Below, in pieces: positions 6,108 through 63,713 of a DNA stretch of 64,000 nucleotides (position 1 is its first letter; the number at the start of each line of letters is the position of its first letter). Both the position numbers and the translations under genes were made by a program. A model generated the notes under the pieces. The model had not been told where the DNA came from. It was given only the letters and a program-made list of their open reading frames with translations, and did no database searches. Location: assembly GCA_037042185.1 (NCBI GenBank), contig JAXQJY010000032.1:3038001-3102000 (forward strand), written 5' to 3'. The stretch comes from Sordariomycetes sp. S80-01Y. Lineage: Eukaryota; Ascomycota; Sordariomycetes.

Positions 6108-7661
6108 ATGTCTGGATTCCCTGGTCCCGTCTACGGGCTCGAGGTCCCGCCCGGCGAGGTCTTGATCCCGGCTTCGATGGACTTCCCTGCCTCTGTGAGT
6201 TCAACAACGCCCGCGATAACGCCAATGCGCACGGAGGCAATTGCGCATACTTTCGGGATTATCCAAGGCTAACATCAATGCTACTAGTTCCGCATCACCA
6301 TGGCCGCTGTCGACCCAACCGAGGAGGCTGAGGCCGACGCTGAGGGCAAGCTGCCTGCCATTCCCCGCTCTACCCTCCGTCTCGTCAAGTCCGCCTACCC
6401 CGGCCTCGACGCCGACGAGGACGATGAGCTCGACGAGGACAGCCTCCGCGCTATGCTCGGCGCCGCCGACAGTGATGAGGATGACAGCGACGACGAGCCC
6501 AACGGTGGCCCCAGCGACCCCGCCAAGGCCAAGAAGCAGAAGCAGAGCGCTGCCATCAAGAAGCTCCTCGAGGAGGCTATGAGCGACGACGACGACGAAG
6601 AGATGGAGGATGCAAAGCCCAATGGCGTCAAGTCTAGCAAGGCCAAGGGCAAGGCCCCTGCCTCTGACGACGATGAGGAAGACTCTGACGACGAGAGCGA
6701 CGACGATAACCTCGAGAACTTCGTCATCTGCACACTTGACACAGAGAAGGTACGAACTGATCACTCGCGTTGAAGCAACATGTTTGCTAATCCTCATTAG
6801 AACTACCAACAGCCCCTCGACATCACCGTCAACCACGGTGAGAAGGTTTTCTTCGTCGTCACCGGTACTCACACTGTCTACCTGACTGGCAACTATGTGA
6901 TGGACGATGTCGATGATGAGGACAGCGAGGAGGATGACGAGTACGACTTGTCCCCTGACGAGCTTGACTACGACTTGGGTGGCGACAGCGATGAGGAGAG
7001 CGACGAGCTCGACGACGTTGAGAATCCCCGTGTCACCGAGGTCGACTCCGAGGAGGAGGCCCCGAAGCTGGTCGAGACCAAGAAGGGCAAGAACAAGCGT
7101 GCTGCTGAGGAGGCCGCTTCGCTCGACGACATGATTGCGGAAGCTGGCGGCGACGAAAAGCTCTCCAAGAAGCAGCTGAAGAAGCTCAAGAACAACAAGG
7201 GCGAGGCTGTCGCTGCTGAGGAGGCCAAGAAGGAAGGCAAGTCCGACAAGAAGGTTCAGTTCGCCAAGAACCTCGAGCAGGGTCCCACCGGATCCACCGA
7301 GAAGGCCAAGGCTGGCAAGGGAACTGTTGGTGTCAAGAATGTCGGAGGTGTCACCATCGACGACCGCACCATCGGTAACGGCCGCACTGTCAAGAACGGC
7401 GACACTGTCGGTGTTCGCTACATCGGCAAGCTGCAGAACGGCAAGCAGTTCGATGCCAACAAGAAGGGCAAGCCTTTCTCCTTCAAGGTCGGCAAGAACG
7501 AGGTCATCAAGGGCTGGGACATCGGTGTCGTCGGTATGGCTATCGGCGGTGAGCGTCGCTTGACCATCCCTGCCAACCTTGCGTACGGCAAGAGCGGCGT
7601 TCCTGGCATCCCTCCCAACTCCCAGCTGACCTTTGACGTCAAGCTGCTCGAGATTAAGTGA
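6108..7661 (+). CDS. fpr4: Nucleolar FKBP-type peptidyl-prolyl isomerase (Fpr3/Fpr4 type)
   Basis: Three exons (6108-6194, 6288-6749, 6801-7661) encode 469 aa. The N-terminal MSGFPGPVYGLEVPPG joined to SFRITMAAVDP is the nucleoplasmin-like start of fungal nuclear FKBPs. The middle has long Asp/Glu/Ser tracts and Lys-rich patches (SKKQLKKLKNNKGE). The last 100 residues or so form the FKBP domain: RTVKNGDTVGVRYIGKL, FKVGKNEVIKGWDIG, GGERRLTIP, LAYGKSG and FDVKLLEIK, with the drug-pocket Trp in KGWD. In yeast, Fpr3 and Fpr4 isomerise prolines in the nucleolus and on histone tails, and Fpr4 acts as a histone chaperone. That role is inferred by family. Splicing the first short exon is needed because the GT-rich part after PAS is not conserved and a clear TAG acceptor precedes FRIT. 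Confidence 0.92.
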
Positions 7662-43517: not shown

Positions 43518-46500
43518 TTATCCGCCCATGTGCTCAGTCACGACACTGAGATGACTCCGCCCACCAAGCGACGCTCCCCCAGCGTCGCTCGACGGCGCAA
43601 AGCTGCGTCGGCCCTTGTCGCCCGCAACAATCACCTGAGCCGGACACACCACGATCTCTTCATCCCCTACACCAGCATCATCACCCTTCTTGACGACCAG
43701 AGGGAAGAGGACGACACGGACTACTGCGCCCTCGGCCTCTAGGTCTTCGTTGGTGGATGCGTTCTTCCCGGACCGCTCGTTCATCATCGACGCGTTGAAT
43801 TGAACGGTAGCCGCGAGTTCTCCTTCTGAGTCATACTCTGGCTGCAGAGGCGGGAGCATCATGTACTCGGCCTTCTGAGTGCGCATCTCGATGGACAGGT
43901 CGACAGCTTCGCGGAGGACACGGCGTAGCTGCGACTGGATCTGGTTCTCGAGATTGCCCGGCGGCGGGAGAATCTTGCAGAGCGTCTGGAAGATGGCTTG
44001 GACCACAGCCTCGGTGTCTTGGTCCTTCTGTTGCCTAAAGTTGTCTCGCCTGGCGAGAAGCGTCAAGGTGACGGCGCGCCATTGTCGGACAGCTTGTGGC
44101 GGGCCGACCTCTGTGAGCATCTTCTCGAGCGACTTGAGTTTTTGCCGCTGCTCTCGGTCCATGCCAAAGAGGTAGCGGGTAAAGACAAATTCCCAGATCA
44201 TATTCATAGTCATGGACATGAAAATGTCGCGGCGCTTCACACGATCGGAAAGATATCTGTCGACATCTGAGCCGTCGAGGACGGCATTGTCGAGGCGGTC
44301 GATTGTTTTCTCGTCATTGATCTCGCTGGTCAAGCGACACGCGCGCATGTCACTGAACTTGGAGAAGCGCAGCACCCACTGTTGAACGTGGGAACAAAGC
44401 TGCTGACAACGGTTGTCGAAGTGATCCTCGTCGCGTAGGTCGAGGAAGTCAGCATCGACGCCTGCTTTAGATGCGAGTATTTGCCGCTGCATCTCGCGCA
44501 CTTGTTCCTTTGCATCTTCAAGTTGCGCGCGCAGGTCTGCGATCTCGGCATCCTTGTCTTGCAACGATTGCTCGAAGGTGTTGTACGCCCCGCGAGCTTC
44601 GTCGAGTTCGCGGGCGACGTCTGCATGCCGCACCTCGAGATCGGCGTAGCGACCGTTATCTTTCTGTGCAAGTTCGGCATTGGCGCTGGTTAGGCCTTCG
44701 TTGACTTCGGTCAGGCGCGAGACCTCGTTTTGCAGGAAGTGGAGTGATTGCTTGAGGGCTTCAATTTCCGAATCGCGTTCGGACAGGACGACAGTGGCGC
44801 GCTGGCTGAGATTCTGCTCGGCGTGGGTTCGGGCGTCGGTCAAGAGACGGTTTTCTGCCATGAGCTGCTCGACGCGGGATTCGAGCTCGAGGACCTGCAT
44901 GCTCTGGCGACGACGCATGCTGTGGGGCCTGGTGGGAGAGCGCGGCGAGCCCATGCGGCCCTCGCCGAAGCCATCGTAAACATCGGCCATGTCCTTTGAG
45001 CGGACACGCCCTTCGTTGGCGACGGGTTGCGATGGCTGAGAGCCGGAGCCGGAGCCAGAGCCTGAGGCTGAGCCTGAGGCCGAGGCGGAGTCAGTGGGCG
45101 GGATTTGCGGGTGGCTGGGTTGTTGCCGGAGGGATCGCAAGTCGCCGCTCACGCGCTTGTCGACCCGACGAAGTGGTGGTGTGGGGGTCGATCTGATACC
45201 TGAGCCTTGGCCGTGGATGCCTGGGGATTCAGGCCGGAACTTGAGCGGCTCAGGCGTTCTCTTCCGCGTGAGGCTGGTGTTGGACAGGGATCTCCGCAGT
45301 TGTGGCTGAGAATCTTGTCGCCTGGGCTGTCCAACATTGTGGCTGTTGTCGGACACGCTTCGCTGTGATGAAGCCGTTGCTTTTCCTGCTACTGCTGCTG
45401 CTGCTGCTCCTCCAGCCGCCACGGGCAGCGAGGAAGGTTTCTTGGACTCGGATCGCAGGTCTCCGTAGTCTCGCGACTTCATAGATCTTAGCGATGGTGA
45501 TGGCTGCAACTCTCTCTCGGTCCTGGACTTGCTACTCCTGAGACTCGGCGTCGTTGCATCGCGCAGGTTTCGGGACGTTGTGCTTCTGAGAGGTGAATTG
45601 TCGTAGTCGTCCGCTGTCATTCTGGATTTGCTGCTCTTCTTCTCGGGCTCAGGTGTCAACTCAGGCGCAGTTGGCTCCTGTAACTTGGGCGTGCCATAGG
45701 AAGATCGCGATAGCTTCTTGGAGCTCCTAGGTGTCTCGGCAGAGTGTCTAGGAGATTCTGCCCAGTCATCAGCGTGATACCCGCTGTCGCGCGGCTGTTC
45801 TTGAGTCGGCTGATTAGCCGCGAGGAGGCCACGACTGCGACTGTGGAATGATGATCGAGGTGATTCCACGTAGCCACTGTCGCGGTTCATGTCCGGTGTT
45901 TGAGGGGCCAACCCGCGGTTGATCGTAGGCTCGTCCTCCGCTTCTGGGTCTTCTCTGATGCCGGGAAGCGATCGTGCAGGGGACAGCCTGGTTCCTCCGA
46001 AATCCGACCCAAGAGGACCGCTTAACGCGGTAGCTTGGCTGTCCTCTCTAAGTAGGCCACCTACCGGCTCTTCTACGTCGGAGTCACGACGTAGTAGGCC
46101 CATTCGTCTTGATCTTGATGTTGACTGTTCGCCACGACCGAGGATCGGGCTGTCGTCATTATCGTAGTCATAGTCGTCGAGAGGTACACCTCTTTGGGCT
46201 GTTTCTTTCCACCCCTCATCGGACCCCGAGAAGCTCTCGCTCTGTGGCGTGATAGCAGGCTCCTTGGTCTTGTCCACAGGCTGTACTTTATCTCTGGCTC
46301 CTGTATTGTCGACTGTTGGTGTAAGCAAGGACCTCGAGGCATCCTCCGGCTCCAGCGCAGGGTCGCCTGGTTGAGCCCAGGTTTCATCTGCCTTGACCGT
46401 TGTCGGCTCTGTATCCAAGCTCCTTGTCGGCGTGGGGTCAGCCTCTGTCCCAAACGCCTCAACATCTCGTGGCTCGACTCCTGATGGCCTCTCATCCTCC

Positions 46501-49500
46501 ACCTCAGGCTCGGCTTCACCACCTCCCCAGAAATCATCATTCTCCTTCTCTATCAGCTTTCCTTTGGTCTTCTCCCCCTCACCCCAGAAGTCACTTTCTG
46601 CGTTGTCGCCCTGCTCCTCTTGCAGATTCCTCTTGTCGGCACTCTCCCACAAGGATGGATCATCGAAGATGTCGTCCTCTTGCGGCTGCCTTTTGTCAAT
46701 CGACTTCTTGTTTTTCTTCCCCTTCTTTCCTTTCTTCGCAGGGGATGCCTTCTCGGCCATCGCGGCCGCTCCCGCGGCGACAGCCCCGGCGGCAACAACT
46801 GATGCGATTCCGGAAGACTCATCCTTGCGTTGGGACACCAATTCCTTAGGAGTAGTTGGAGTCTCTGCGGCCTCTGCAGATGGATCATCCATTGTCGAGT
46901 CCTTTGCTTCTTGAGGGAATGACCAGCTTTGCTGATCAAACCCGGAGCTGCGCGGTTGAGGAGACTCCTCAACTAGTGCCGCTACAGATGCAGGAGCTGG
47001 TTCGTCGGGTTTGACATCCTCCATTGGCACATCTTGCTCCAGCACTTGTGGTTCCTCGATAGTTGCCTTGGACTTCGTCTTCTTGTTTTTCTTTTTGGAC
47101 TTGGTCGTTGCAAAGCCTTCGAGCCAGTCGTCGGAGCCTAATTCCCGCGGTGTTTGGCTTGTCGATGGTTGTGTCTCCTCAATGATCTCTTGAGAAGAAG
47201 TATCAATTTCGGGGGATCCAGATGGTATCTCTTGGGCGGAGTCACCTTCCGTGGCATCCTTAATAGGCATAGTCGAAGATTCTTCATAAGCGGCTTTGGT
47301 TGTCTCTTCAGGAATCGGCTCGTTCAACGCAGTCAATGTCTGCTCAGCTTGCGATTCACTGGCATCGGCTGCCGTGGCAGGGTGATCTTCTGCCGGTTGC
47401 ACACTGTCGAGCCCCTTGTCACCGGCCGTAAGCTCGTCAACGGACTCATCCGGGGCGACCCCTTGCTCTTGAACAGCGCTCGAGAACTTGCTAGCGGCTG
47501 ACTCGTCGGGAACAAGCTCCTTGGTCGACGACTCCCCCTCGTCAGCCTGAGACATGGCAAGTTGTGACGTTTTGGACTTTTTCGCCTTCTTGCCCTTCTT
47601 GGTCGGCAGCGCCCATTCATCTTCCTCTGCCGCTGTGGGCTCTGCTGGTTGAGTCGTGCTTTCGTTATCCCAGGATCCGGGTGTTGAGGCCTCAACTATT
47701 TCCTTGGACTCCTCGGGGACTTGGGCAGCGCTGGAGTCGAAACCAGCTTGCTTCTTTTTCTTGTCCTTCTTTGACTTCTTGGTTGACAACGAGAAGCCGA
47801 AGTCATCCTCGGCAGGTTGAGTATCATGACCGGTAGCTGATGCGGGCTTCTCCTCCGAAGTCTCAGTCCAAGTCTCAGTTGAATGGGGATGCTCATCGTC
47901 GACAGTAAGCGATTTCTTGGCCGCTTCTGTCTCACTCAGCGGTCCATCCTCAGCGGTCGGGAGCGGTTCAGCCTCCGGTCCAGCCTCCTTGGACTGGGCA
48001 ATCGTTTCTCCCGGCGTGTCGTTGTCTGCAGCCAGTGCTGCCGCCAACGCAGCAGCCTTCTCGGCTTTCTTCTTCTCTTTCTTCGACAGCTTCTTGGAAG
48101 GCGCCCAATCGTCGAGCTCTTGCACAGTTGCCGGCTGGTCGAATGATGTCTGCTCAGGAGCTGGTGAAGCCTTTTCGGCGTCAGGAGGCGATTCGGTGGT
48201 CTCTTTGAAATCCAGAGGCTCATGAGTCGCCTCAGCTATCTTTTCGCTTAGAGGCTCAGGTGCAGACTTGTCATGTGTCTCGATCTGAGCCTCGTCTTGC
48301 TCGGCAGGCTCTGCTCTTGTCGTCCGTGAATCAGACGGGCCCTCTGGAGTATCGTTCGAGGTCGATTCGCCAGGTAGCTCGGTCTCAGCAAAAGGATCAG
48401 GCAGACCCTGAGCCAAGGCCTGTTTCTTCAGTTTCTTCTTCTCTTTCTTCGAGAGACCCGCCAACGAAAATCCTTCGTCTTCTTTGTGGGTTGGCTCTTG
48501 CTGAACGGGGGCTTCGGGCTCTTGGCGAGCCTCAATCTCCTGGTGCTCTTCCGGCTTGATGTTCTGCTGCGCTGGTGTGGTCCCCTGAGACTTTGCAGCC
48601 TCAGGCTCATCCCAAGCGCTAAAGTCAAGGGCCTTGCCCTTCTTCTTCTTTTTCTTGTCCTTCTTTGAAAGGGCAGGCCCCCAGCTGTCGTCCTCTGCCT
48701 GAGCTTCTTTGTCCATTGATTGTTCATTGGCCGTCTCAACCTCCTTGACTGAGAGGCCCTCCTCCTTAGGGCTGATGCCTTCGGGAGTGTGCTGCGTGTC
48801 GGCCACAGCGGGCTGCTCCTCGGCTTCGTTCGGTGTTTCGACGACCGCGAGTTGGTCGACTGGGGTGGCAGACTCCTCTGAAGCTAGTCCCTCAGCCATT
48901 GCTGGATCGTTCGTTGCCACACTTTGCTCGGCTTGCGGCCCCTCAAGTTGGGGTTTCATGTTGACAGCAGCGGTTTCGGGCTCTGGTAAGACACCGGACT
49001 CCTGGCTAGACTTGATGGTCGCCTCAGAGGTGGGTTCCCAGTCCATGTCCATGGACCTGGCCTCCTCTTTCTGTTGCTCCTTCTGGGAAACGCCAACGTC
49101 CCATCTGTTGTCGTCACCGATGGGCTCATTGGGAGTTTCACTGAGCGGTTCTGTGAGGGAGAGGCCCTTAGCAACCGAATCATCAATAGGAGCCTCAGTC
49201 GCTGGTTGATCGAGTGTTGGAATTGGTTCGACCGCAGGCTCTTGTTGTGACTCTTGTCTCGCCTCGGTTGCGGCCGCAGGAGCCTCTTGGGCCGCTCCTG
49301 CTTCGGCTCGCTCTTCGGCACGCCTCTTGAGCTCTTCATACCGCTTACGATCAGCTGACTTCTTGAGGCGCCCTGTTTTGGCCTTTCTAGTCTCCAAGTC
49401 GGCAAGTTCCTGTTCTTCTGCCAGAACCTCGACATCTTCAGCCGTGGCAATTGATTTATCAGCTGAAGGCCCATCTTGGTCCTCATCGGAGTTAGCGGGC

Positions 49501-52500
49501 GCGGAGGTTTCTGTTCCTCCTCTTGGCTCAACCGAAGGTACTTCTTGGCTTTCGGGCTCGGTCATAGAGTCAGGTGTGGGCTCTGCAAGAGGAGTATCCT
49601 CAGCAGCCTGTGCCTGAAGTCGCTTCTCCGCGCGGTCCTGAAGTTCCTCATATCGCTTACGATCAGACTTCTTGAGCTTCCCAGCCTTAGCTTTCTTGGC
49701 CTCCAGATCGAAGATCTCTTGTTCTTCGGCAGCAACCTCAGTAGTCCTCGCCGTCTCTTCAGTATCTGGGGATTCTGCCAGTGACTGGGAAGCAACTTCG
49801 GGCTGGGACCCAGAAGGTGGTTCCTCGACAGAAACCTCAGGCGCAGGTTCAGAAGCAATCGAGCTTGACTCAAACGTGGACTGTTTTTCCCGCCCAAGGG
49901 TACGCTCGGAAAACGAGAGATTTGCCGCGTCGCGCTGTTGGGCACGGTCTTTGAGCTCTTCGTACCGCTTACGGTCAGACTTCTTGAGCTTTCCGGTCCT
50001 AGCTTTCTTGGCCTCTAGATCGGCAATTTCTTCTTCTTCAGCGGCGATCTCAGCCTGTGCGGGTGACTGTGAAGCAGCATCGGGCTGAGCTTCGGAAGGC
50101 AGTTCCTCGACAGGAGCCTCAGCTGCAGGCTCGTCGGCTGTTGGACTTGACTCAGCCGTGGGCTCTTCTTGCCGCTCGATGTTGTGTTCAGATTTCGAGA
50201 TCTTCGCCGCGGTGCGCTGCTGGGCACGATCTTGGAGTTCTTCGTACCGCTTGCGGTCAGACTTCTTGAGCTTTCCGGTCCTAGCTTTCTTGGCCTCCAG
50301 ATCGGCAATTTCTTCTTCTTCGGCAGCGATCTCGGCAGCCTCGGCAGTCTCACTCGGTGACTGCGAAGCCGCCTCGGCTTGGGTCTCGAAAGTTGGTTCC
50401 TCGACAGCAGCCTCAGTCGTAAGTTCTTCGACTACTGGACTTGGTTCAACCGTGGACTCTTCTTGCGGCAAGATGTTAGGTTCAGACATCGAGGCCTTCG
50501 CGGCGTCACGCTGTTGCGCACGGTCTTTGAGTTCTTCGTACCGCTTGCGGTCAGCCGATTTCTTGAGGCGTCCTCGCTTGGCTTTCTCAGCCTCAAGATC
50601 AGCGAGCTCTTGCTCTTCAGCTGCGATTTCGGCAGCCTCATGGTCAACAGGCGGCTCGACAGGTACCTCGGGGATGACCTCACGAGCAGCCTCCGTGGTG
50701 GGATCAGCAAGCTCTTCTAGGCTGGCCTGATCGGCGACCTTGGCCTCAGCTTCTTCACGGTCGTCGCTTGGATCAAGACTTCTTCCTGCAGGCACTTCTG
50801 TCTCTGTGGCAAGAGACGTTTCGAGCGACTCGGGCTGTTGGGAAGAATCATCAACCTTCTCTTGCTGCTGCTGCTGCTGTTGCTGCTTCTGTTTCTTTTT
50901 CTTATCCTTCTTGGATAGTCCCAAGCCCCATTCGTCATCAGCGGCTGGCTCGACGGGTGCCTCGGCCGAAGTGTCAGGTGCAGCAGGGCTGATGCTGCCT
51001 CCAGAGATCTCCGCAGACTGATCTTCCAGAGGAACATGAGCGGCTTCGGCCATAGTAGTCTGTGCTACGGCAGGTGCCTCTTCAGGCTCGGCAGCGGCGC
51101 CAGGCTGGTCAACATTGTGTGAATCTTCGGGAAATTGGGGTTCTTGAGCTGGTCCAGATGTGGGCTCCAAGTCCATCGCTGCGAGGTTGGCCTGCTCTTT
51201 TTTTTTCTTCTTTTTATCCTTCTTAGAAAGACCCAAGCCCCAGTCATCATCCGGAGCCGCTGCTGTTGTTTCTGATATAGCTTCGGGCACAACAACATCC
51301 ACAGGCTTCGGTGACTCTTCAGATTGCTCGGGAACATTGACAACCTCGCTCTCAGCAACAGCCTCCTCCTCGGGTCGGGACTGTTCAGTAGGTAGCTTGC
51401 GATCCTCTTTGGGTTCGGCCTCAGGCTCCGCGGTTTGCTCCGCGGTTTGCTCCCAAGCTGCCGCAAGCGCCCGCTCCTTCTCCTTCTGCTTCTTGCGTTT
51501 CTTCTTCTCTTTGTTGGAAAGGCCAGCGTACTCATCCTCTTCCTCAACATCAGGCTTAACAGCATTCTCTGAAGACATCGTTGCTTCGCGGTTTGTCTCA
51601 GACTCGGGAGGGGCTTCGGAGGTTGCATCAGGCTGGAGTTGTGCCGGCTCTTCGGGAGACACCATCTCCTGAGGCGTCAGCTCAGCGGGCTCAGGCTCAG
51701 TGGGCTCATGCTCAGTAGGTGCGGGCTCAGTAGGCTCGTTAGGCTCAGTAGGTTCGTCCCACGCCGCCATGGCTTCTTGAGCTTTAGCCTTCTTGCGCTT
51801 CTTCTTTTCCTTCTTGGACAAGCCTGCAAATTCATCTTCATCCTCTGGGGCGGCTTCGGGAATTTCTTTGGCGCTTTCAGGGACATTTTCAGCAGGCTCG
51901 GCCTCTTTCAGTGCTTCAGGCTCTTGGGACTCCTGGGGCGCCTCTCGAGGTTCGGTGGTTTGTTCCTCTGGTTCCGTTCCCTGGGGCGATGTAAGTTCGG
52001 GTGCCTTCTCGGTGGCAGCTGCTTCAAGGCCAAGCCCGGGGCTTGAGGGCCTGTCGAAGGATTGACTAGCTTCAGGAGATTGAGACTCAGCCGGCTGCTC
52101 CCAGGCCAAAGCTTCGGCCTTGGCTTTGGCCTTCTTCCTCTTTTTCTTCTCCTTGCTAGACAGGCCAGCAAACTCATTTTCCTCCTCAGGATCAGGCGTC
52201 ACATTATCGGCTGCGGGTGGCTCAGCAGGAACCTCGCTCTTCTCTGCTTGTGGTGTGTCGGCAGATTGTGGCTCAGCAATTGCTGTTTCGTCTTCGATGT
52301 CAGCAGTGTCTCGCTCACCAGTACGCTGGGGCGGCTCCGACAAGTCAGGCGTAGCAGCCTCGTCCGCGGCCGCCATAGCCTGGGCTGCAGCCTTAGCTTT
52401 CTTCCTCTTTTTCTTCTCTTTGCTGGAAAGACCAGCGTACTCGTCCTCTTCTTCTTTCTCAGGACTAGGAGTGTATGTTGAGGTTTCGATTGCTGCTTGA

Positions 52501-55500: not shown

Positions 55501-58500
55501 TGTGGTTTGTCCCAGCCGAGATCGTCGGTGACCTCTTCCTTCTCAGTTGGTTTAGAGAAGAAGTCATCGTCCATGTCCCAGCCATCGTCGGCAGGCCGGG
55601 GGGTCTCGGCTTCTTGCTCATAATGATCCCACTCGTCCGGCTGGTCCTCGTAACGACGCCAGCCATAGCTTGCGGGGACCTCTTCGTCCTCTGCGATGGG
55701 CTCCAGATAAGAAGCGTCTGCAACTTGCTGAGAAGGCTGACCTTCGTAGGTCCAGTTGTCAGGCTCTGTTTCTGCCTGTGGCTCTTTGGACTGCTCTGGC
55801 TGAGGGTCATGAGGGATGGACTCTTCTGTCTTGGGCTCTTCAGGTTCTTCCCAAGCCATCGCCTGTTGCTGCTGTTTCTTCTTTTTCTTGTCCTTCTTCT
55901 TCGATGAAGGCGCGTCCCAAGCAGATTCGGCAGGCACAGAAGCATCATTATCGCCAGCAAAAGATTCGGTAGCTTGGGTAGAAGGGTCTTGGGTAGTCGA
56001 AGCAGACGGATCATTCTGCGAGAAGAGATTCTCGGAAACCTCAGACTGGAGGCCGCGGTGCTCATCACCTTTGCCAGAGGTCTCTCCGATCCGAGGTACT
56101 TGCTCCTTTTCCTGCAATGTTTGATCCCAGGCAGAAGCATCATCGCCAGTGGCAGCGATAGCGGTTAGAGGCTCTTCGTGAGTGTCGGCAGGCTTTGTCT
56201 CCTCAGGAGTGTCGAGCTGGAGCTGCAAAGCCTTCTTCTTGTCCTTCTTCTTCTTTTTCTTCGACACCGGGGCTAATTCGTCTTCAGCCTGAATGGGGAC
56301 ATCCGCAGAAGTGGAAGGCTCAGTCTCGAGGGGAGCTGCGGGCTCGGTGGGTTTGTCCTCAACTGTAGCATCCTCGACTAGTGCTTGGCTTTCCTCCGCT
56401 GCAGGGGCAGAAGCTTTGGCAGCAGAATCGGGTGTGTCCTCTTCGGCGTCTTTGATCCAAGAGTCGTCGGCTTGCATGGCCTTCTTTTTCTGCTTCTTCT
56501 TCTCCTTCTTTGACAAGGGCGGAGCAGACCAAGAGTCTTCGGCACTTGGCTCGGCAGCTGAAGTTGCAGATGGCTCAGGCTGCTCGGGAACGGCGCTGTC
56601 GGCAGCTGCTTCAGCTTGCTCATCAGCTGGGGCCGACTTGTCTTCAACGGAGGCCGACTCGAGCAGCGTCGCTTCAGGTTCAGGGGCAGAAGGCTCAGTA
56701 GGAGTAGCCTCCTCGTCAACCGGCAAAGGTGCCTTTCCCTTCTTCTTCTTTTTCTTGCCCTTCTTGCCGGTAGCCTCCCAAGCATCCGGCTCTTCGGCCA
56801 TAGATTCGGGTGCGGGTTCTGCCAATTGCTCAGGCTCGGGGACTGTGTCCTCAGCGATGATGGTGTCTAGCTCAGGGGCAGACTTGTCGGTAGTCTCGAT
56901 CTCAGCGTTGACCTCTCCAGTATCGGTACCGGCATTGGCATCGGCTGACTTCAAATCGGGTTCGGCTTCCCGGACATCTGCAGGCTTCTCCAAAGAGGCA
57001 GGCTCAGGGTCCAGAGCGGCCTCAGCAGCCTTGCCCTTCTTTTTCTTCTTCTTGCTCTTCTTACCGGCAGGCTCAAAGGTATCAAGCTCGGCGGCCACCT
57101 CAGGTTCGACGGCAGCATCAACCGGCACATCTTGAGGTTCCTCCGTCTCTTGAGACGGCTCGGCGGTCGATTCGACAGGCGCAGCACTCTCAAGGGGTAC
57201 GGATTCGCTAGACTCAACAGGCTTGGTGTCTTCGACAGCCTCAGAGGTTGTCTCCGTCGTTAGACCAAGTGCCTTGGATTCAGAGAACTCTTGGTCATCC
57301 TTCCCAGTAGCCAGAACCGCAGCCACACCACCAACAGCGATAGCAGCCGCCCCTGCAGCAACAGGGAGCTCAGCTTCTTGAGCAGATGCTTGCAGTTCTT
57401 TTTCCTTCTCCATTTGCTTCTTGCGCTTCTTCTTCTGGCTCTTGCTGAGGCCAGCGGCCCAGCTCTCATCGTCTTCAGCAGGCTCCTCAGATGCTTTCTC
57501 TGTCACAGGAGCTTCGGCGCTCTCGACCTCGGGCCCAACGTGCTGCTCGATCGGCGCTTCCTTGCTCGCTGCAGGAACTTCAGTCTCGGGCTCCTGGGAA
57601 GGGCCGGAGACGTCCACGGCCAATGCCTGCTTCTTCTTCGCCGCCTTCTTGGCCTTCTTCTTGGCTTTGCCGGACAGCATGCCGATGTCCTCCTCTGGCT
57701 CCTCGGGTGCAGGAGTAGCGTCGGCCGAGGACTGTTCAGCAGGCGTCTCGGGTGCAGTGACGGCCTCCGAAGGTGTATCAACGGATAGGTCTCGGCTGCG
57801 AGAGGGCGAGAGCGCCCCATCTTCACGAGCGTCAGAGAATTGATCGTCTCCAGATGCTAAAGCCTCGTCTGTGTAAGCAAGACTGCCGTTATTGCCAGGT
57901 TTCGATGGTGTCTCCGCGATCTGGTGGAGATTCTGTGCCAAGGCGTCGTTATCAACAGTCTTGTTCGATTTTGTAGACGAGGGAGCGGATTGAAGCAAGT
58001 AAGAGCTTCGATCCTTCGACATAGGCTCTATCGGGTCGGGCTCCGAAGCCTGTTTCTTGGTGTCCGTGCCAGAAACATCAGGGAACTCGGGCTTGACCTC
58101 TGCCTTGGGCGTCGTTTCTTGCGAGCCCGCACGTTCGTCACTAGGCTGGAATGCTGGCAATGAAGTGTCAAGGCGAAGGGTGGGCTCGTCGTAGCCGGTC
58201 TGGTCGTATCCGTCTCGTGCGTACTCGTCGGCGGACTCCCACGCTTCAGAACCAGGGCCGGGGGAGCTCCTGGATGAAGCCTCGCTGGGAGGTAAGGCAG
58301 GCAGGTCAGCAGAGTCCAGAGGGTCTTCTTCAGGGCCCTGGCGGTTATGCTCAAGTAGATACAACGGCTTGTACTCGCGACTGTCATCCCAGGACGTCGG
58401 GCGTGACTTTCGCGCCGAGCCTGGTGATTCGGGCATCCCAGGCTGCGGGGAGGCAGCAGGGGATGACTTGTAAAACGCCGGCGAAGATGGTCCAGATCTA

Positions 58501-61500
58501 TTGCCCAGTCGTAATTGGAAAGGAATAGCAGTATTGCTCGGAGACTTCACAGGAGTCTCCTGAGCACTTTTCCGCCGGGAGTGAAGCGACCTGTTCTGTT
58601 GATCAGGAGGCGTATCAGGTCTGCTTTCAGGCAGACTTGGCAGTTCCTCCTCAGGAGACTTGACCGGGGATCCAGGCTCACTGGGGGGAAGAGGAAGCAA
58701 ATCGCCATATTGGGGGTCTATGGCAGGTTTGATGGCCCTGGCAACGATACCAGGGTCAAAATCGTCCTGAACACCGCGGCTCCAGTCCGCGATCTCTTCA
58801 GAGGGGTCCTTCTTTTCCGAGAGGGTTTCGGTGGCATTGTGGCGAGAGAGGGCATCCGCAGCAGCGATTCCAACACCCGCCAAGCCGACACCCGCGCCGA
58901 GAGTGCCGGCATTATCTAAAAAAGACTCCTTGCTCTTGTTGTCGTCCTTCTTAAAGATGCTGGAAAAAAGGCCGCCGCTGGATCGCTTCTTCTGAAGGTC
59001 CTTGTCCTTGCTGCGACCGCCGCCGGGGGCTGATACAACGGACTTGGCGTCGTCGTCGTCTTCATAGCGGTATGACCGCCTTGAGGATCGTTTGTCGTCG
59101 CGAGGTTCACTAACCACGGAGCTCACATCACGGTCCTCAAATGGGTCCCGCCCTCGATCCGGTGGATGATCGCCATACTCGTCGAAATCGTCTCCTGTGC
59201 CGCTCCTGCGTTTGGACTTTTTGCTGCTCTTGCGGCTGACCTCGGAACCAGCCTCTGAGGGTGCAGCAGAGCGGGATGGAGAGTCATAGGCACCGGAGTC
59301 ACGCTTGGATCTTCTCCTAGACTTCTTGTCATCCTCCTCCTCGGGTTCGACTATTTTCGACAAGTCGTTCACCGACCGAGATGGCGAATCATAGATTAAC
59401 GAGTCGCGCTTTGACTTCTTCTTGGATGCCTTCTTCGCATCTTCCCAATCGTCGTCAGGTTGAGAACGGCTTGAGAGGGCAAGGTCGTCCACGGATTTCG
59501 ACATCGAATCATACGTTTTCGAGTCACTCTTGGACTTCCTCTTTGATTTCTTGTCGTCGTCGTCCCACTCATAGTCGGGGTTGACGCCCCTTGAAGATGT
59601 CAAATCAGCATAGGCCTCGATGGGTACCGAAACGCTTGTAGCCCCGTCGTCGTAGTCACGACTCTTGTGGCTCTTCCGCTTGCTCGAAGACTCTTCCCAA
59701 GCATCCTGGTAGGTATCAGGCTCGGACTCTTTGATCGGCTCCGGCTCGGTGTACATCTCGTCACCTTCAGAAGCCAAACCGCGAGCGCGAGCTTCCTTGT
59801 CGCGTTTACGCTGCTCTTTCTTGCTAAGCTTGACAGGAGGTTCTTCCTCTGTACGGAGCGGCTCGGTTGCCTCGGCGGGGGGGTCCAAGGCAGCCTCGGC
59901 TTCCTGCTGTTTCTTCAGCTTCTCTTGCCTCTTTCTCTCCTTCTTGCTCAGTTTGGTAGGCACTTCGGCGAACTCATCAGCGGGGTCGATGGCCTTATCC
60001 TGGGGAGTTTCAACCTCGCCGAGGACAAAGCCAGGTTCAGAAGGACCGGGCTGGGGTTCGCGTGAGGGAAGATCCGAAACGGTCTCCGAAAAAGGCTTCT
60101 GGTAGACTCCGTTGCTGTTCAGCTCGTTGGAGCCAGGAGGGGAGTCGCGGCGACGGTAAGTGGGATCATCAATGACCATATTGGCATCGAACCCCGTCTT
60201 CTCGAGTCCGGCAGCCAGGGTGGCAGCGAACTCGATGTCATCCTCAAAACCTCCGGGCATTTGTCGTGGGCTGGGGCTAGCAGGCTTAGGACCGGGCACA
60301 GGAGGAGCATCTTCCACATGATAAGCAGCCATGTCCCGAGATCCACCACTGGCATCCATCTCCTTGGGAGATTCTGTGATGGTAGGTTCATTGTGTGGTT
60401 CGCGACCATTGGCAGCAATTGCAGTTGCGATAGCACCCCATTGGCTTGACTTGTCGAGAATCGGGCGTGACTTGTTGTTGCCGAGCTCGCGGTCATTGTG
60501 GGGCTCAGGGGTTACGACTTCGAAGGTGTCAGTTCGGTTCTCACCCCAGCTGACGGACTTCGGAGTCTGGACCTCGCCGTCGGGTCCAACTACAACCACC
60601 GCACCGACATCAGACTTCGAGGTCTCCTCTTCGTAGTCCTGAGTTCGGCGGCGACGAGATGAGCTGACGCCAACCTCAGACTTCGACGAACGCTCGTCGC
60701 GATCCTTTGTCCGCCTCTTACTCGAGCCAACGTCAGATTTTGAGGTTTCGTCACGGGTCTTCTCCCGGCTCTTGCCGCTGCGATCTTTGGAGCGACGGTC
60801 CTTCTCGGTAGCGTCCTTGTTGTCTCGGTCTGTCGTTGGCTTCTCCTCCTGTATCTCATTCGCCGGCGTCGGTTTCCGACTCGATGCCGGGGTGGGATAG
60901 ATAAGATTCAAGTAGGGCCGCTCCCGTTCAGCATCCTTGATGGGCTCGTTGAAATTACCAGCATATCTGGCCGCCTCACTTGGCGTCCATCGGTTGTCGA
61001 TCTCGAAATCTGCGTGTTTGTCCCACTCATTGTGCTCATGCTTCTTGTACTCAGGCGGGGTCACAATCCTAGGGATATCACGAACGTTGTCGTCCTGATC
61101 ATATTTGTCAACAACGGAGCGGTCAGGGGAATGGTCGCGGGAGGATCGAACTTTGTCAGAGGCAATCTTCCGTGCCGTCTCGGCCTCGCGATAGTACCTG
61201 TCAGCTTCGTCTTGGACGGAATCCCTGACGCGGACTTCGGAGCCATTGTCTGAATAAGCGTCACGCTTGCGGTCTTTGGACCGGACGCCTTCGGCAATGA
61301 TGGCCCCGGCCATGACAGCAGCACCAACAGGAGCAACAGCATGTTCCGCTTTCTGGGTGATGTAGTCCGAGGCATTGTGGCGCTCCTCCGGGTTCTGCCT
61401 CTTTCGGTTTCCTTCCACCATTTGCTCGATTTCGAAGGAATCCTTGCGACTGAGTCGACCCTGAGAGAGTTCGTCGTCAGTGCTGTCCCAGACCGGCTCG

Positions 61501-63713
61501 CGGTCGACAGTGAATACATTAGGGGTCAGTGGCCTGGGGGCTTCAGCCGGCGGCGCTTGAGCGAAGTCTTCGACCTGGTACTTGAAGGGGTCAACAGCTG
61601 CTTCGTGAAGGGGAAGATCCGGGTTCATCGCCTGAGTGGAACCTGCCTTTTCCGGTCCAGGGAGTTGGCGCGGCTCCTGGGGTTGGTCGTATTTGGCCGG
61701 CAAGTTGTACTTGCTGCTGTCCCGTCTTGAGACACGCGACAGCTCGCTACGTCCATCATCCGGTTCATCCTTTCCGCGACGCTTGTAGGAGCTGACCTGG
61801 GATTTCTTGTCATCGCGGTCGTCTGTTTTGGAGGATCGTTTACGGTCTTTATCGCGATCCTTGTCGTCAGAGTACTTGGACGAGTATGAGTCGCGCTTCG
61901 ATTTGCGCTTTTCATCCTTATCCTTCTCGCGCTCCTTGTCGTCGTACTTATCATACTTGGAGGAGTAAGAGTCTCGCTTTGATTTGCGCTTCTCGTCCTT
62001 CTCCCTGTCGCGATCCTTCTCACGCTCCTTTTCGCGCTTGTCGCTGCGCTCAGATCGCTTTTCAAGATCACGCTTCTCATCGTCACGATAGTCGCGATCG
62101 TCCTTGCGGTCCTTTGTGAGCGCAGCTCCGGCGAGACCAGCGGCGACGCCTGCGGCAGCGATTCCGCCCCAGTTTGTTGAGTCTTCTGACTTGCGCGAAG
62201 GCTTGTCCACTTTTCGCGTGGGATCCTCAAGCTTCTCAGCGTCGTAGACCTTGGGCGAAACGGTTTGCCTTGGTGTGGGCTGCTGCAGGGGCACCGGTCC
62301 TGGCCGCGCACGTTGAGGAAGATCCACAGCATCGAATCGGCGCGGGTCAGATGTCGCCATGGGGTAGACATTGCGCATTGGGCCCATGGGCTCAGTCGCA
62401 GAGCGGGTGAGGGGTCTAGGCTCGCGGTGGATCGGCTTGCCGTTCTCATCGAAGGGACGGGGTGTGACCATTCCATGCAACGAATTGACGGGTCCGAATA
62501 GACTGGGATCGACCGCAGACCGACCATCTCGGTTTCTTGAACCGGACGCCATGGCCGCACCAGCAGCAGCGCCTGCGGCGGCCGCAGCCGTTGGCCTGAT
62601 CGCAGCGGACACGACCGTACCAAATGCAAGATCAGAGTCTGCGCTGTCCTCCGAGTCATCATCGTCAGAAGCAGACTCCCAGTCAGAATCATCGGAGGAG
62701 GAATCAATCCTGGAGGCACCAAGGCCCCGGCTAGTGCCGTGTTTTGAATTCCTGTAGTCGCTGATCTTAGTCGCGGCAGATACCAAACCAGAAGGCTTAG
62801 AGATGCCGGCAGCGCGCAAGTCTTCGTCATTCCGTGCCTTGGCCAGATCGGACAGTTGGCGCCCTATGGCCATAATCTCATCATCCGTCTTCCTCCTTCT
62901 TGGGGTCGCCGGCTTCGAAGGAATTTGCCTGTCGGCGTTGTAATACTCCGCTGCGAGACCTGCGGCCGTAGCACCAGCGACCGCAGCTGTGGCAGTCGAG
63001 CCCCAACCGCTCGATTCCTGCTGCACCGGGGGTGGCGGGTGCGAATAACTCTGTGAGTGCCCATGACTTGGTCCATATTGGCTCGGGCCTGAGGGATAGG
63101 ATGGGGTCGGTCCTGCGTTGTGCGTTGTGGCGTATGTCGCGCCCGCGGCAGCTGCAGCGGCGGTAGCGGCAACAGGCGCGCTGTTCTGGTGATGATGTCG
63201 TTGACTGAAGTCGCGACTCGATTTTCTCCGGGGAATGTAACCCTGGCCGTAAGCCAAATCAGAATTCAGCGACGAGGAGGATGAGTTCCCAAAGTACAGG
63301 ACCCTTTTCTTCTTCTTGCCGCTCCTCCGCCTCCTCAGCCTCCTCCTCTCGCTCGGCGCTCGGAAGAAGGTCTGGAAAACACTCCCGTGCTTCAGCTCGC
63401 CAGAGTACCGTCTCGAAATATCCAAAAGACTGGAGCTGGTACTGCTCGAGCCTGAAGAGCTACTCCCAGGCCTCCCGCGATAATTAGTGTTGAAGTTTTG
63501 CTGAGGTGGGCGGTTCATGTCGATAGGCGCGCTGCGGTCCTCCATCGTTGGGCCCGGTTGCGCGTCGTAGTAGCTCGAATTCTCCCCGAGAACGGTGCGT
63601 GACGGGAAATCGGCCGTAGTTGCATTGGTTCGTTCCCGTGAGGCAGCTCTCCTCTCGCGTCTCCGTCTCCTGGAGCTTTCGGGGCTCCGGCGACGGGAGG
63701 ACGAGTCTGCCAT
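43518..63713 (-). CDS. lah: Leashin (LAH), Woronin-body tether; involucrin-repeat giant protein
   Basis: One uninterrupted exon of 20,196 bp encodes 6731 aa. The N-terminal 150 residues hold a conserved signature of fungal leashins: LLDISRRYSGELKHGSVF, APSERRRLRRRRSGKKKK and NSSSSSLNSDLAYGQGY. The next 1900 residues are charged, with repeated KRDSYSSKY and KSKRDS-YDSPSRS elements. From about residue 2008 to 5675 some 31 boxes of the type LSKKEKKKKKK, usually preceded by D-D-x-W, alternate with acidic Glu/Ala/Pro spacers. Five copies of a DLEAKKARTGKLKKSDRKRY module sit among them. A coiled coil (about 6270-6420) leads into a globular C-terminal domain of about 300 residues (CSHVQQWVLRFSKFSDMR to the end). 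In Neurospora and Aspergillus, leashin ties Woronin bodies (through WSC) to the cortex or septal pore. The frame is open for 65 codons upstream but has no ATG there, so MADSSSRRRSPESS is the start. Confidence 0.8.
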   Translation of the reverse strand: MADSSSRRRSPESSRRRRRERRAASRERTNATTADFPSRTVLGENSSYYDAQPGPTMEDRSAPIDMNRPPQQNFNTNYRGRPGSSSSGSSSTSSSLLDISRRYSGELKHGSVFQTFFRAPSERRRLRRRRSGKKKKRVLYFGNSSSSSLNSDLAYGQGYIPRRKSSRDFSQRHHHQNSAPVAATAAAAAAGATYATTHNAGPTPSYPSGPSQYGPSHGHSQSYSHPPPPVQQESSGWGSTATAAVAGATAAGLAAEYYNADRQIPSKPATPRRRKTDDEIMAIGRQLSDLAKARNDEDLRAAGISKPSGLVSAATKISDYRNSKHGTSRGLGASRIDSSSDDSDWESASDDDDSEDSADSDLAFGTVVSAAIRPTAAAAAGAAAGAAMASGSRNRDGRSAVDPSLFGPVNSLHGMVTPRPFDENGKPIHREPRPLTRSATEPMGPMRNVYPMATSDPRRFDAVDLPQRARPGPVPLQQPTPRQTVSPKVYDAEKLEDPTRKVDKPSRKSEDSTNWGGIAAAGVAAGLAGAALTKDRKDDRDYRDDEKRDLEKRSERSDKREKEREKDRDREKDEKRKSKRDSYSSKYDKYDDKEREKDKDEKRKSKRDSYSSKYSDDKDRDKDRKRSSKTDDRDDKKSQVSSYKRRGKDEPDDGRSELSRVSRRDSSKYNLPAKYDQPQEPRQLPGPEKAGSTQAMNPDLPLHEAAVDPFKYQVEDFAQAPPAEAPRPLTPNVFTVDREPVWDSTDDELSQGRLSRKDSFEIEQMVEGNRKRQNPEERHNASDYITQKAEHAVAPVGAAVMAGAIIAEGVRSKDRKRDAYSDNGSEVRVRDSVQDEADRYYREAETARKIASDKVRSSRDHSPDRSVVDKYDQDDNVRDIPRIVTPPEYKKHEHNEWDKHADFEIDNRWTPSEAARYAGNFNEPIKDAERERPYLNLIYPTPASSRKPTPANEIQEEKPTTDRDNKDATEKDRRSKDRSGKSREKTRDETSKSDVGSSKRRTKDRDERSSKSEVGVSSSRRRRTQDYEEETSKSDVGAVVVVGPDGEVQTPKSVSWGENRTDTFEVVTPEPHNDRELGNNKSRPILDKSSQWGAIATAIAANGREPHNEPTITESPKEMDASGGSRDMAAYHVEDAPPVPGPKPASPSPRQMPGGFEDDIEFAATLAAGLEKTGFDANMVIDDPTYRRRDSPPGSNELNSNGVYQKPFSETVSDLPSREPQPGPSEPGFVLGEVETPQDKAIDPADEFAEVPTKLSKKERKRQEKLKKQQEAEAALDPPAEATEPLRTEEEPPVKLSKKEQRKRDKEARARGLASEGDEMYTEPEPIKESEPDTYQDAWEESSSKRKSHKSRDYDDGATSVSVPIEAYADLTSSRGVNPDYEWDDDDKKSKRKSKSDSKTYDSMSKSVDDLALSSRSQPDDDWEDAKKASKKKSKRDSLIYDSPSRSVNDLSKIVEPEEEDDKKSRRRSKRDSGAYDSPSRSAAPSEAGSEVSRKSSKKSKRRSGTGDDFDEYGDHPPDRGRDPFEDRDVSSVVSEPRDDKRSSRRSYRYEDDDDAKSVVSAPGGGRSKDKDLQKKRSSGGLFSSIFKKDDNKSKESFLDNAGTLGAGVGLAGVGIAAADALSRHNATETLSEKKDPSEEIADWSRGVQDDFDPGIVARAIKPAIDPQYGDLLPLPPSEPGSPVKSPEEELPSLPESRPDTPPDQQNRSLHSRRKSAQETPVKSPSNTAIPFQLRLGNRSGPSSPAFYKSSPAASPQPGMPESPGSARKSRPTSWDDSREYKPLYLLEHNRQGPEEDPLDSADLPALPPSEASSRSSPGPGSEAWESADEYARDGYDQTGYDEPTLRLDTSLPAFQPSDERAGSQETTPKAEVKPEFPDVSGTDTKKQASEPDPIEPMSKDRSSYLLQSAPSSTKSNKTVDNDALAQNLHQIAETPSKPGNNGSLAYTDEALASGDDQFSDAREDGALSPSRSRDLSVDTPSEAVTAPETPAEQSSADATPAPEEPEEDIGMLSGKAKKKAKKAAKKKQALAVDVSGPSQEPETEVPAASKEAPIEQHVGPEVESAEAPVTEKASEEPAEDDESWAAGLSKSQKKKRKKQMEKEKELQASAQEAELPVAAGAAAIAVGGVAAVLATGKDDQEFSESKALGLTTETTSEAVEDTKPVESSESVPLESAAPVESTAEPSQETEEPQDVPVDAAVEPEVAAELDTFEPAGKKSKKKKKKGKAAEAALDPEPASLEKPADVREAEPDLKSADANAGTDTGEVNAEIETTDKSAPELDTIIAEDTVPEPEQLAEPAPESMAEEPDAWEATGKKGKKKKKKGKAPLPVDEEATPTEPSAPEPEATLLESASVEDKSAPADEQAEAAADSAVPEQPEPSATSAAEPSAEDSWSAPPLSKKEKKKQKKKAMQADDSWIKDAEEDTPDSAAKASAPAAEESQALVEDATVEDKPTEPAAPLETEPSTSADVPIQAEDELAPVSKKKKKKDKKKALQLQLDTPEETKPADTHEEPLTAIAATGDDASAWDQTLQEKEQVPRIGETSGKGDEHRGLQSEVSENLFSQNDPSASTTQDPSTQATESFAGDNDASVPAESAWDAPSSKKKDKKKKKQQQQAMAWEEPEEPKTEESIPHDPQPEQSKEPQAETEPDNWTYEGQPSQQVADASYLEPIAEDEEVPASYGWRRYEDQPDEWDHYEQEAETPRPADDGWDMDDDFFSKPTEKEEVTDDLGWDKPQTAAEEKDEPSEDEWSTLVTGKKAKKNKKKQEKLSMERALDTVHEPTNEADTAASSSRDVPSDPTKEEKATEDDWATPTKKSKKDKKKKKAAASDEPSASPEDSQGRTGQDEDPLESNLQEGMSTPRPPSASTEATEIWQEAESEIPEDSKPEEERAAADDTDFLFAPKLSKKDKKKKKQQAALEAAAADDDKSAEPEAKEETRDAESVAGTTDDSPDNTSGFVTPAESVSGEAIPDDEWGGFSSKKSKKEKKKKKAKDSESEPQEPTTTTAERTADASPQAQSQDDRALDEHAATGDGWMEPRLDAQDSDIGLSKQEKKQKKQAKSLAFDTPEDPTVEEAGPSTDTQADDDTPVQQEEEEAAIDYNDWSSGPSKKDKKKKRKSVTFDLGETPAPGDESAQKPVDTDAPSADQSEGELATRSEPAEETQVESELQQGSEQAQDSSKQTGTSPVPADEEANQTPSTDAEDSWGAPLSKKDKKRKKKAQQAAAAAALSEPEPAVKNADQIPEPGAEVQPDAESSTTENVISQSEETIVKEDSAPEPQATAQDVLKDDTAPETTPAADEDDMSWAVGLSKSQIKKRKKQMEKEMAEREAVAAAGTQPSEPASEEQLEPATEAVGLENPNQEPAAADPAVEEPVPVVSRDMSSEEPSQPLSSWEEAVGSAEPKQTLESGTELEKSTEVEPAQQESATEPSGQSPEDDMSWTEGLSKSQIKKRKKQMEKERAEREASAVTEEQSAAKSPVNEESEPSKLEVSDAPAAEEVTPEPTAEEPAVDVAETPAPLPEESSHSPRSGDEPQALAVPEEAPEVEAELDRQGQGKEAEIQSSSPPAEDDMSWAVGLTKSQIKKRKKQFEKEKAAAPEAEPTTIPAADLEPETPAVSEARTEAELSTAEREEPAAEAAGAGADADAMRTADTPFDAVETAPAADDDDWSSGLSKKEKKKKKKALALAMESDEPTQPESSEPSQTTAADELKVPETQLETSVEPETIALPLQEPEAQAAIETSTYTPSPEKEEEDEYAGLSSKEKKKRKKAKAAAQAMAAADEAATPDLSEPPQRTGERDTADIEDETAIAEPQSADTPQAEKSEVPAEPPAADNVTPDPEEENEFAGLSSKEKKKRKKAKAKAEALAWEQPAESQSPEASQSFDRPSSPGLGLEAAATEKAPELTSPQGTEPEEQTTEPREAPQESQEPEALKEAEPAENVPESAKEIPEAAPEDEDEFAGLSKKEKKKRKKAKAQEAMAAWDEPTEPNEPTEPAPTEHEPTEPEPAELTPQEMVSPEEPAQLQPDATSEAPPESETNREATMSSENAVKPDVEEEDEYAGLSNKEKKKRKKQKEKERALAAAWEQTAEQTAEPEAEPKEDRKLPTEQSRPEEEAVAESEVVNVPEQSEESPKPVDVVVPEAISETTAAAPDDDWGLGLSKKDKKKKKKEQANLAAMDLEPTSGPAQEPQFPEDSHNVDQPGAAAEPEEAPAVAQTTMAEAAHVPLEDQSAEISGGSISPAAPDTSAEAPVEPAADDEWGLGLSKKDKKKKQKQQQQQQQQEKVDDSSQQPESLETSLATETEVPAGRSLDPSDDREEAEAKVADQASLEELADPTTEAAREVIPEVPVEPPVDHEAAEIAAEEQELADLEAEKAKRGRLKKSADRKRYEELKDRAQQRDAAKASMSEPNILPQEESTVEPSPVVEELTTEAAVEEPTFETQAEAASQSPSETAEAAEIAAEEEEIADLEAKKARTGKLKKSDRKRYEELQDRAQQRTAAKISKSEHNIERQEEPTAESSPTADEPAAEAPVEELPSEAQPDAASQSPAQAEIAAEEEEIADLEAKKARTGKLKKSDRKRYEELKDRAQQRDAANLSFSERTLGREKQSTFESSSIASEPAPEVSVEEPPSGSQPEVASQSLAESPDTEETARTTEVAAEEQEIFDLEAKKAKAGKLKKSDRKRYEELQDRAEKRLQAQAAEDTPLAEPTPDSMTEPESQEVPSVEPRGGTETSAPANSDEDQDGPSADKSIATAEDVEVLAEEQELADLETRKAKTGRLKKSADRKRYEELKRRAEERAEAGAAQEAPAAATEARQESQQEPAVEPIPTLDQPATEAPIDDSVAKGLSLTEPLSETPNEPIGDDNRWDVGVSQKEQQKEEARSMDMDWEPTSEATIKSSQESGVLPEPETAAVNMKPQLEGPQAEQSVATNDPAMAEGLASEESATPVDQLAVVETPNEAEEQPAVADTQHTPEGISPKEEGLSVKEVETANEQSMDKEAQAEDDSWGPALSKKDKKKKKKGKALDFSAWDEPEAAKSQGTTPAQQNIKPEEHQEIEARQEPEAPVQQEPTHKEDEGFSLAGLSKKEKKKLKKQALAQGLPDPFAETELPGESTSNDTPEGPSDSRTTRAEPAEQDEAQIETHDKSAPEPLSEKIAEATHEPLDFKETTESPPDAEKASPAPEQTSFDQPATVQELDDWAPSKKLSKKEKKKAEKAAALAAALAADNDTPGETIAQSKEAGPEAEPLPTAEDGPLSETEAAKKSLTVDDEHPHSTETWTETSEEKPASATGHDTQPAEDDFGFSLSTKKSKKDKKKKQAGFDSSAAQVPEESKEIVEASTPGSWDNESTTQPAEPTAAEEDEWALPTKKGKKAKKSKTSQLAMSQADEGESSTKELVPDESAASKFSSAVQEQGVAPDESVDELTAGDKGLDSVQPAEDHPATAADASESQAEQTLTALNEPIPEETTKAAYEESSTMPIKDATEGDSAQEIPSGSPEIDTSSQEIIEETQPSTSQTPRELGSDDWLEGFATTKSKKKNKKTKSKATIEEPQVLEQDVPMEDVKPDEPAPASVAALVEESPQPRSSGFDQQSWSFPQEAKDSTMDDPSAEAAETPTTPKELVSQRKDESSGIASVVAAGAVAAGAAAMAEKASPAKKGKKGKKNKKSIDKRQPQEDDIFDDPSLWESADKRNLQEEQGDNAESDFWGEGEKTKGKLIEKENDDFWGGGEAEPEVEDERPSGVEPRDVEAFGTEADPTPTRSLDTEPTTVKADETWAQPGDPALEPEDASRSLLTPTVDNTGARDKVQPVDKTKEPAITPQSESFSGSDEGWKETAQRGVPLDDYDYDNDDSPILGRGEQSTSRSRRMGLLRRDSDVEEPVGGLLREDSQATALSGPLGSDFGGTRLSPARSLPGIREDPEAEDEPTINRGLAPQTPDMNRDSGYVESPRSSFHSRSRGLLAANQPTQEQPRDSGYHADDWAESPRHSAETPRSSKKLSRSSYGTPKLQEPTAPELTPEPEKKSSKSRMTADDYDNSPLRSTTSRNLRDATTPSLRSSKSRTERELQPSPSLRSMKSRDYGDLRSESKKPSSLPVAAGGAAAAAVAGKATASSQRSVSDNSHNVGQPRRQDSQPQLRRSLSNTSLTRKRTPEPLKFRPESPGIHGQGSGIRSTPTPPLRRVDKRVSGDLRSLRQQPSHPQIPPTDSASASGSASGSGSGSGSQPSQPVANEGRVRSKDMADVYDGFGEGRMGSPRSPTRPHSMRRRQSMQVLELESRVEQLMAENRLLTDARTHAEQNLSQRATVVLSERDSEIEALKQSLHFLQNEVSRLTEVNEGLTSANAELAQKDNGRYADLEVRHADVARELDEARGAYNTFEQSLQDKDAEIADLRAQLEDAKEQVREMQRQILASKAGVDADFLDLRDEDHFDNRCQQLCSHVQQWVLRFSKFSDMRACRLTSEINDEKTIDRLDNAVLDGSDVDRYLSDRVKRRDIFMSMTMNMIWEFVFTRYLFGMDREQRQKLKSLEKMLTEVGPPQAVRQWRAVTLTLLARRDNFRQQKDQDTEAVVQAIFQTLCKILPPPGNLENQIQSQLRRVLREAVDLSIEMRTQKAEYMMLPPLQPEYDSEGELAATVQFNASMMNERSGKNASTNEDLEAEGAVVRVVLFPLVVKKGDDAGVGDEEIVVCPAQVIVAGDKGRRSFAPSSDAGGASLGGRSHLSVVTEHMGG
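45034..45092 (-). repeat. Ser-Gly/Ser-Ala dipeptide run in leashin
   Basis: An imperfect 6 bp repeat (GAGCCG/GAGCCT type on the plus strand) encodes alternating Ser-Ala and Ser-Gly just before QPSQP. It is a low-complexity linker and is likely length-variable between strains. Confidence 0.7.
45386..45412 (-). repeat. Trinucleotide (CTG) run in leashin coding an alanine stretch
   Basis: Consecutive CTG triplets on the plus strand, read in the minus frame as GCA/GCC-type codons, give GGAAAAAVAG. It is a microsatellite-like run inside the coding sequence. Confidence 0.65.
49284..50638 (-). repeat. Five tandem DLEAKK/RKRYEEL modules inside leashin
   Basis: Five copies of a roughly 40-residue charged helix module (about 50472-50638, 50183-50340, 49897-50056, 49606-49742, 49284-49435) share AAEEEEIADLEAKK and LKKSDRKRYEEL cores. 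They are separated by variable acidic spacers. The second and third are nearly identical at the DNA level over about 90 bp, which suggests recent duplication or gene conversion. Confidence 0.8.
50862..50887 (-). repeat. Polyglutamine (CAG) run in leashin
   Basis: CTG/TTG triplets on the plus strand encode eight glutamines after KKKKQK, next to a lysine box. It is a coding microsatellite. Confidence 0.75.

Follow-up and report, generated by a model that had tools for sequence, protein, structure and literature searches.

The minus strand of the window (the whole stretch of 64,000 nucleotides analysed here) contains a lah-like ORF at 43518..63713, which encodes 6731 amino acids and a stop codon (733 kDa; net charge, -486). 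In our reading, to which we give a probability of roughly 85%, this ORF represents the leashin gene (Lah) of a filamentous ascomycete and is translated into one chain. The ORF would then be an ordinary member of the leashins in an unusually clean form. The newer point is the kinship of its C-terminal domain with two small proteins from the same genome.

In the six-frame reading, the stop-to-stop frame comprises 6805 codons (43518-63935, minus strand). The first ATG is located at 63713 in the context AGA-ATG-G and gives 6731 residues, and the frame ends with a TAA stop codon at 43518. Upstream, an in-frame stop codon is present just past 63935 and the intervening 74 codons do not contain Met. 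The runner-up stop-free stretch in the window has 1070 codons. The remaining five frames over 43518..63713 are interrupted by 97-451 stop codons each, and none of them stays open for more than 412 codons. Given the base composition of the ORF frame, 6731 codons would remain open by naive chance with a probability of ~10^-108. The preliminary description had placed a 20.2 kb frame of 6731 codons at 43518-63713, and the six-frame reading confirms that this frame is real at exactly these positions. A leashin-like-looking N-terminal block, a coiled coil and a different C-terminal domain, which had also been described, are all present in the ORF. When codon usage was tested with a leave-out procedure, the ORF frame ranked best in 436 of 445 test windows. 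The nine misses are found at residues 76-225 (five test windows), 5866-5925, 6091-6150, 6541-6600 and 6661-6720; five of them therefore fall inside the supposed Woronin-body-binding end. There was no miss within residues 226-5865, and the test windows revealed no long non-coding-looking stretch in the middle of the ORF. In a test with synonymous codons only, 291 of 332 test windows scored above zero but just 94 beat the best other frame. Thus, this second test is uninformative on coding continuity.

Because no leashin sequence turned up in the collections searched, the identity was assigned by anatomy against published coordinates, together with the presence of HEX-1 in the genome. On this basis, a leashin identity is very likely. 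From the N- to the C-terminus, the protein is composed of a basic N-terminus, an acidic linker of ~4000 residues, a coiled coil, a hydrophobic helix and a C-terminal domain. It is a very long acidic chain with a low-complexity centre. W, F, Y, I, L, V, C and M account for 14-17% of residues 1-6260, and by this composition the centre is apparently disordered. Predicted leashins outside N. crassa have 5,936 to 7,480 amino acids (PMC2690989). The length of the ORF product falls within this range, and its acidity and PELS-rich centre also fit the description in that paper. When the ORF was searched against Pfam as six pieces, which together cover it, no family exceeded its cut-off; the best match was EzrA (E 6.9e-5, below the family cut-off) in the coiled-coil piece.

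The HEX-1 gene is located at about 2713.5 kb of contig C16 of the same genome (G000). Its best matches are Woronin body major proteins, its product ends in SRL, and 128 of 152 aligned residues (84%) are identical to those of N. crassa HEX-1. Judging from this gene, the species probably makes Woronin bodies. In the N-terminal part of the ORF product, a basic, serine-rich block is visible in the translation at residues 85-160 (63234..63461, minus strand), where the coding score is weak. To our eye, this block looks leashin-like. The preliminary description had called the ORF a complete leashin: the anatomy and the presence of HEX-1 support the leashin identity, and the resemblance of the N-terminal block is judged by eye. 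The larger N-terminal region, residues 1-344 (62682..63713, minus strand), has a computed net charge of +24. Its function is assigned by analogy with N. crassa LAH-1, in which the Woronin-body-binding region was mapped to residues 1-344 (PMC2690989). In N. crassa, binding to the Woronin body via WSC has been shown. However, PMC5345055 considers it unlikely that A. fumigatus WscA takes part directly in tethering. Therefore, binding through WSC may fail outside Neurospora. There are six Mpv17/PMP22 matches in the genome studied here, and our guess is that one of them (L011) is WSC.

The coiled coil was placed by eye at residues 6271-6418 (44460..44903, minus strand), on the basis of heptad periodicity and of coiled-coil Pfam matches below the cut-off. 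None of 2000 shuffles reached its heptad periodicity. The coiled coil stops ~80 residues before the hydrophobic helix. The helix, residues 6497-6515 (44169..44225, minus strand), is weakly hydrophobic (Kyte-Doolittle value, 0.90) and ends 216 residues from the C-terminus. For the last 1000 residues of A. fumigatus Lah, PMC5345055 places the coiled coil at 509-686; the predicted transmembrane segment spans 761-781, and 219 residues follow it. Thus, the order and the spacing are the same in the two proteins, the part after the hydrophobic helix being 216 residues long here and the part after the transmembrane prediction 219 residues long in A. fumigatus. This C-terminal spacing may help to locate divergent copies. 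The C-terminal domain itself, residues 6420-6731 (43521..44456, minus strand), occupies the position of LahC288, the domain that targets Lah to the septal rim. No Pfam family matched it above the cut-off, and the search of solved structures with the C-terminal 552 residues gave nothing below E 0.08. Scans of viral_contigs and genome_contigs with the domain, which reach close relatives only, gave no relative; a pattern search of these collections returned 17 matches, none of which is a relative. The AlphaFold models of the domain had mean pLDDT values of 38.2 (alone) and 42.8 (with two exon-level relatives), too low for interpretation or for a fold search. PMC5345055 speaks of an unknown partner to which the Lah C-terminus binds at the pore.

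The acidic linker contains 30 type-1 repeats between residues 2014 and 5672 (46698..57674, minus strand). They were picked from 36 basic clusters in residues 1900-5700, and the other six clusters belong to type-2 repeats. A type-1 repeat is an acidic stretch, in most cases followed by an aromatic residue, and then LSKK-x-KKKKKK. W, F or Y is present within 14 residues before the lysine block in 27 of the 30 repeats, and it is W in 19. The mean charge is -3.8 ahead of the block and +7.1 within it. The spacing is 103 +/- 26 residues when one gap of 749 residues is left out, and this gap contains the five type-2 repeats (EIAAEEQEIADLEAKKAKTGKLKKSDRKRYEEL...; residues ~4336-4820, 49254..50708, minus strand). 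The type-2 repeats correspond in part to a tandem repeat at 49864-50554 (unit, 282 bp; 2.4 copies; 78% matches). Because this tandem repeat encodes type-2 repeats, the linker has expanded through internal duplication. In N. crassa, the linker contains 18 copies of R1 and 33 copies of R2/R3, in place of the 30 lysine-block and five type-2 repeats found here. A possible likeness to R1 lies in three L-(L/P)-x-LP-(P/E)-S motifs at residues 1672-1815 (58269..58700, minus strand), which resemble the N. crassa R1 core. None of 2000 shuffles reached three matches to this pattern, which was trimmed after looking at the sequence. Against the whole R1 consensus, the ungapped score was 35, a value that the best of 60 shuffles also reached, and the ORF contains no close match to the R2/R3 repeat PEEVELPASP.

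In our reading, the linker may be a polyampholyte tether composed of spacers and basic stickers. A simple coil estimate gives ~94 nm for the disordered part; the distance from the Woronin body to the septum is 100-200 nm (PMC2690989). As in the PEVK region of titin, with which a parallel was drawn in PMC2690989, the linker is charged, Pro/Glu-rich and apparently disordered. In contrast to PEVK, the lysines here are in dense blocks, and no homology is claimed. Because PMC5745230 calls the titin parallel speculative and states that in titin the motifs in question do not contract, the reading of the linker as a spring is weakened. As a concrete hypothesis, the evenly spaced blocks of opposite charge could make the tether elastic or let it associate with itself. 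The chain also contains 11 hydrophobic segments, two of them in the C-terminal domain, whereas 300 shuffles gave a mean of 1.65 and a maximum of 6. The other nine are Gly/Ala-rich segments of ~19-32 residues amid low complexity (residues 178-6116; window positions 45366-63182, minus strand). One covers residues 2109-2140 (57294..57389, minus strand) and the others begin at residues 178, 237, 360, 512, 788, 1598, 5631 and 6094. To our eye, they are reminiscent of glycine-zipper helices.

If these parts work as their counterparts do, the basic N-terminus would bind the Woronin body, a contact made in N. crassa by way of WSC, a membrane protein. The acidic, apparently disordered linker of ~4000 residues with its evenly spaced basic blocks would then act as a soft and possibly elastic tether, and the coiled coil would pair the chains. 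The whole would be made from a single transcript and would be localised to the pore. By analogy with the known leashins, septal-pore tethering is thus expected in this species.

The neighbouring genes are as follows. A Zn2Cys6-type transcription factor gene with several exons (window 40237-43011, plus strand) lies directly past the 3' end of the leashin gene, and a RING-finger gene (L014:1893-2885, minus strand) is located upstream of its start. A Vezatin-family gene (window 25809-27722, minus strand; PF12632, "myosin-binding motif of peroxisomes") is present ~16 kb from the leashin gene and is the sole match to this family in the genome. That it is linked to the gene for an organelle tether may be fortuitous. 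A. nidulans VezA is reported to be needed for dynactin assembly (PMC11042379).

The preliminary description had also called the gene intronless. A stop-free frame does not prove the absence of introns, because seven new introns were found by RT-PCR in N. crassa lah and six of them are in-frame (PMC2690989). If introns of this kind were hidden in the ORF, the chain would be shorter and the gene would not be intronless. We searched the ORF for in-frame GT-AG introns with strict donor, branch and acceptor signals and obtained no candidate. This count alone says little, because 40 synonymous-codon shuffles gave a mean of just 0.75. Strong donor hexamers are scarce in the ORF (2, against 7.0 expected). 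With a relaxed pattern, seven candidates from five donors remained; all of them are T-poor (14-20% T) and translate as ordinary charged linker. As a control, the pattern was applied, with any intron length, to six actin-family loci of the same genome, out of ~ten gene places. It proposed 10 introns in four of the six loci, several of them at exon junctions, and one of the two loci without a proposed intron is a single-frame gene. However, apparent junctions on contig C12 and at 3769 kb of contig C16 were missed. In the remaining window, the pattern was no commoner than by chance (10 against 9.2, and 7 against 7.7), and the power of the test is therefore modest. Taken together, hidden introns are improbable, and the ORF is likely to be intronless: the word can be retained in the sense that no convincing in-frame intron was found, and not as a proven property.

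The same locus of N. crassa bears on the number of products. The initial prediction for N. crassa lah was a single protein of 10,821 amino acids, and tagging then revealed two transcription units (PMC2690989). Therefore, an open frame alone is no proof of a single product. One continuous frame could yield two proteins, as in Neurospora, from an internal promoter within the coding sequence, the 5' product serving Woronin bodies and the 3' product the tip and the pore. In favour of this, internal Met codons are plentiful: the chain has 79 Met, and no stretch without Met exceeds 387 codons. In N. crassa, however, the end of LAH-1 depends on the splicing of intron 10 to an alternative frame with a stop codon just before the lah-2 promoter (PMC2690989). 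Here the ORF runs unbroken from the N- to the C-terminal part in a single frame. Because the central linker is without codon-usage misses, there is no sign of an internal non-coding gap as at the lah-2 promoter, nor of a long frame-shifting gap. Moreover, the split is described in the Neurospora/Sordaria clade, and with HEX-1 at 84% identity the species may well lie outside this clade. Other species have single predicted proteins, and one chain was inferred as the ancestral state (PMC2690989). A. fumigatus Lah (AFUA_2G08060, named "involucrin repeat protein" in PMC8227032) is likewise regarded in PMC5345055 as a single protein, whose N-terminus binds Woronin bodies and whose C-terminus is targeted to the pore. 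From the SNP positions given in PMC8227032, we calculated that codons 2316-4679 of this gene (~7.1 kb) are without extra bases, a long uninterrupted run as in our ORF; between its codons 779 and 2316, however, there are ~142 bases too many, whereas no convincing intron was found in our ORF. N. crassa LAH-1/LAH-2 (NCU02793) share with the ORF product the acidic linker and the position of the Woronin-body part (N-terminal) and the pore part (C-terminal) at opposite ends of the locus, and differ in having two transcription units and many introns (PMC2690989). Thus, two products are unlikely here. The ancestral one-chain arrangement that had been claimed is favoured by the continuity of the frame, although this stops short of proof. 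It is still less probable, and very improbable overall, that the protein is some other giant coiled-coil scaffold with the same C-terminal module. The placement by anatomy leaves some room for such a scaffold, as does the presence of a related C-terminal domain in two further proteins of the genome. Against it, length, charge, coiled coil and helix spacing agree with those of published leashins, and leashin homologues were reported in all Pezizomycotina genomes sequenced at the time of PMC2690989. When the genome was queried with residues 6420-6731, there was no second giant frame among the best candidates scored, and residues 1-344 found just themselves among theirs.

Related copies of the C-terminal domain are present in two or more small proteins encoded elsewhere in this genome. 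One relative is clear (genome-wide E 1.2e-8) and the second is weaker (E 0.0044). According to gene models that we spliced ourselves, the small relatives are L003 (contig C16, ~3514.2-3515.7 kb; 461 amino acids) and L004 (contig C6, ~249.6-251.2 kb; 493 amino acids). Like the lah-type ORF product, both have a coiled-coil-like stretch and a related C-terminal domain, with the hydrophobic helix and a QWR motif at matching places. In contrast, they are without the giant linker and the N-terminal Woronin-body part. No Pfam model matches the domain in L003 or L004. An alignment made from separately placed exon pieces of the relatives (A2) was misplaced and was left out. A further candidate on contig C10 (L036, E 0.039) was dropped; to our eye, its translation looks like a piece of a transcription factor from fungi. 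We tentatively propose, at somewhat less than even odds, that the septal-rim anchor belongs to a wider, unnamed domain family that also occurs in tether-free small proteins, and that a leashin is such a small cortical or septal protein to which a giant polyampholyte tether and a Woronin-body-binding head were joined. In members of the proposed family, a mainly helical domain would come after the coiled coil, and the hydrophobic helix, the QWR motif and the C-terminal end of this domain would be conserved.

Leashin keeps Woronin bodies at the septal pore. With both ends in one gene that has no evident intron, the expression of the complete tether would be easier to follow here than in N. crassa. 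If the proposed family is real, its small members would be unrecognised septal-pore or tip proteins. Furthermore, the helix of LahC that is called "transmembrane" would be a structural element common to the family, and its role in the membrane would need re-testing. The two small genes offer tractable proteins with which both pore targeting and the claimed transmembrane insertion may be tested.
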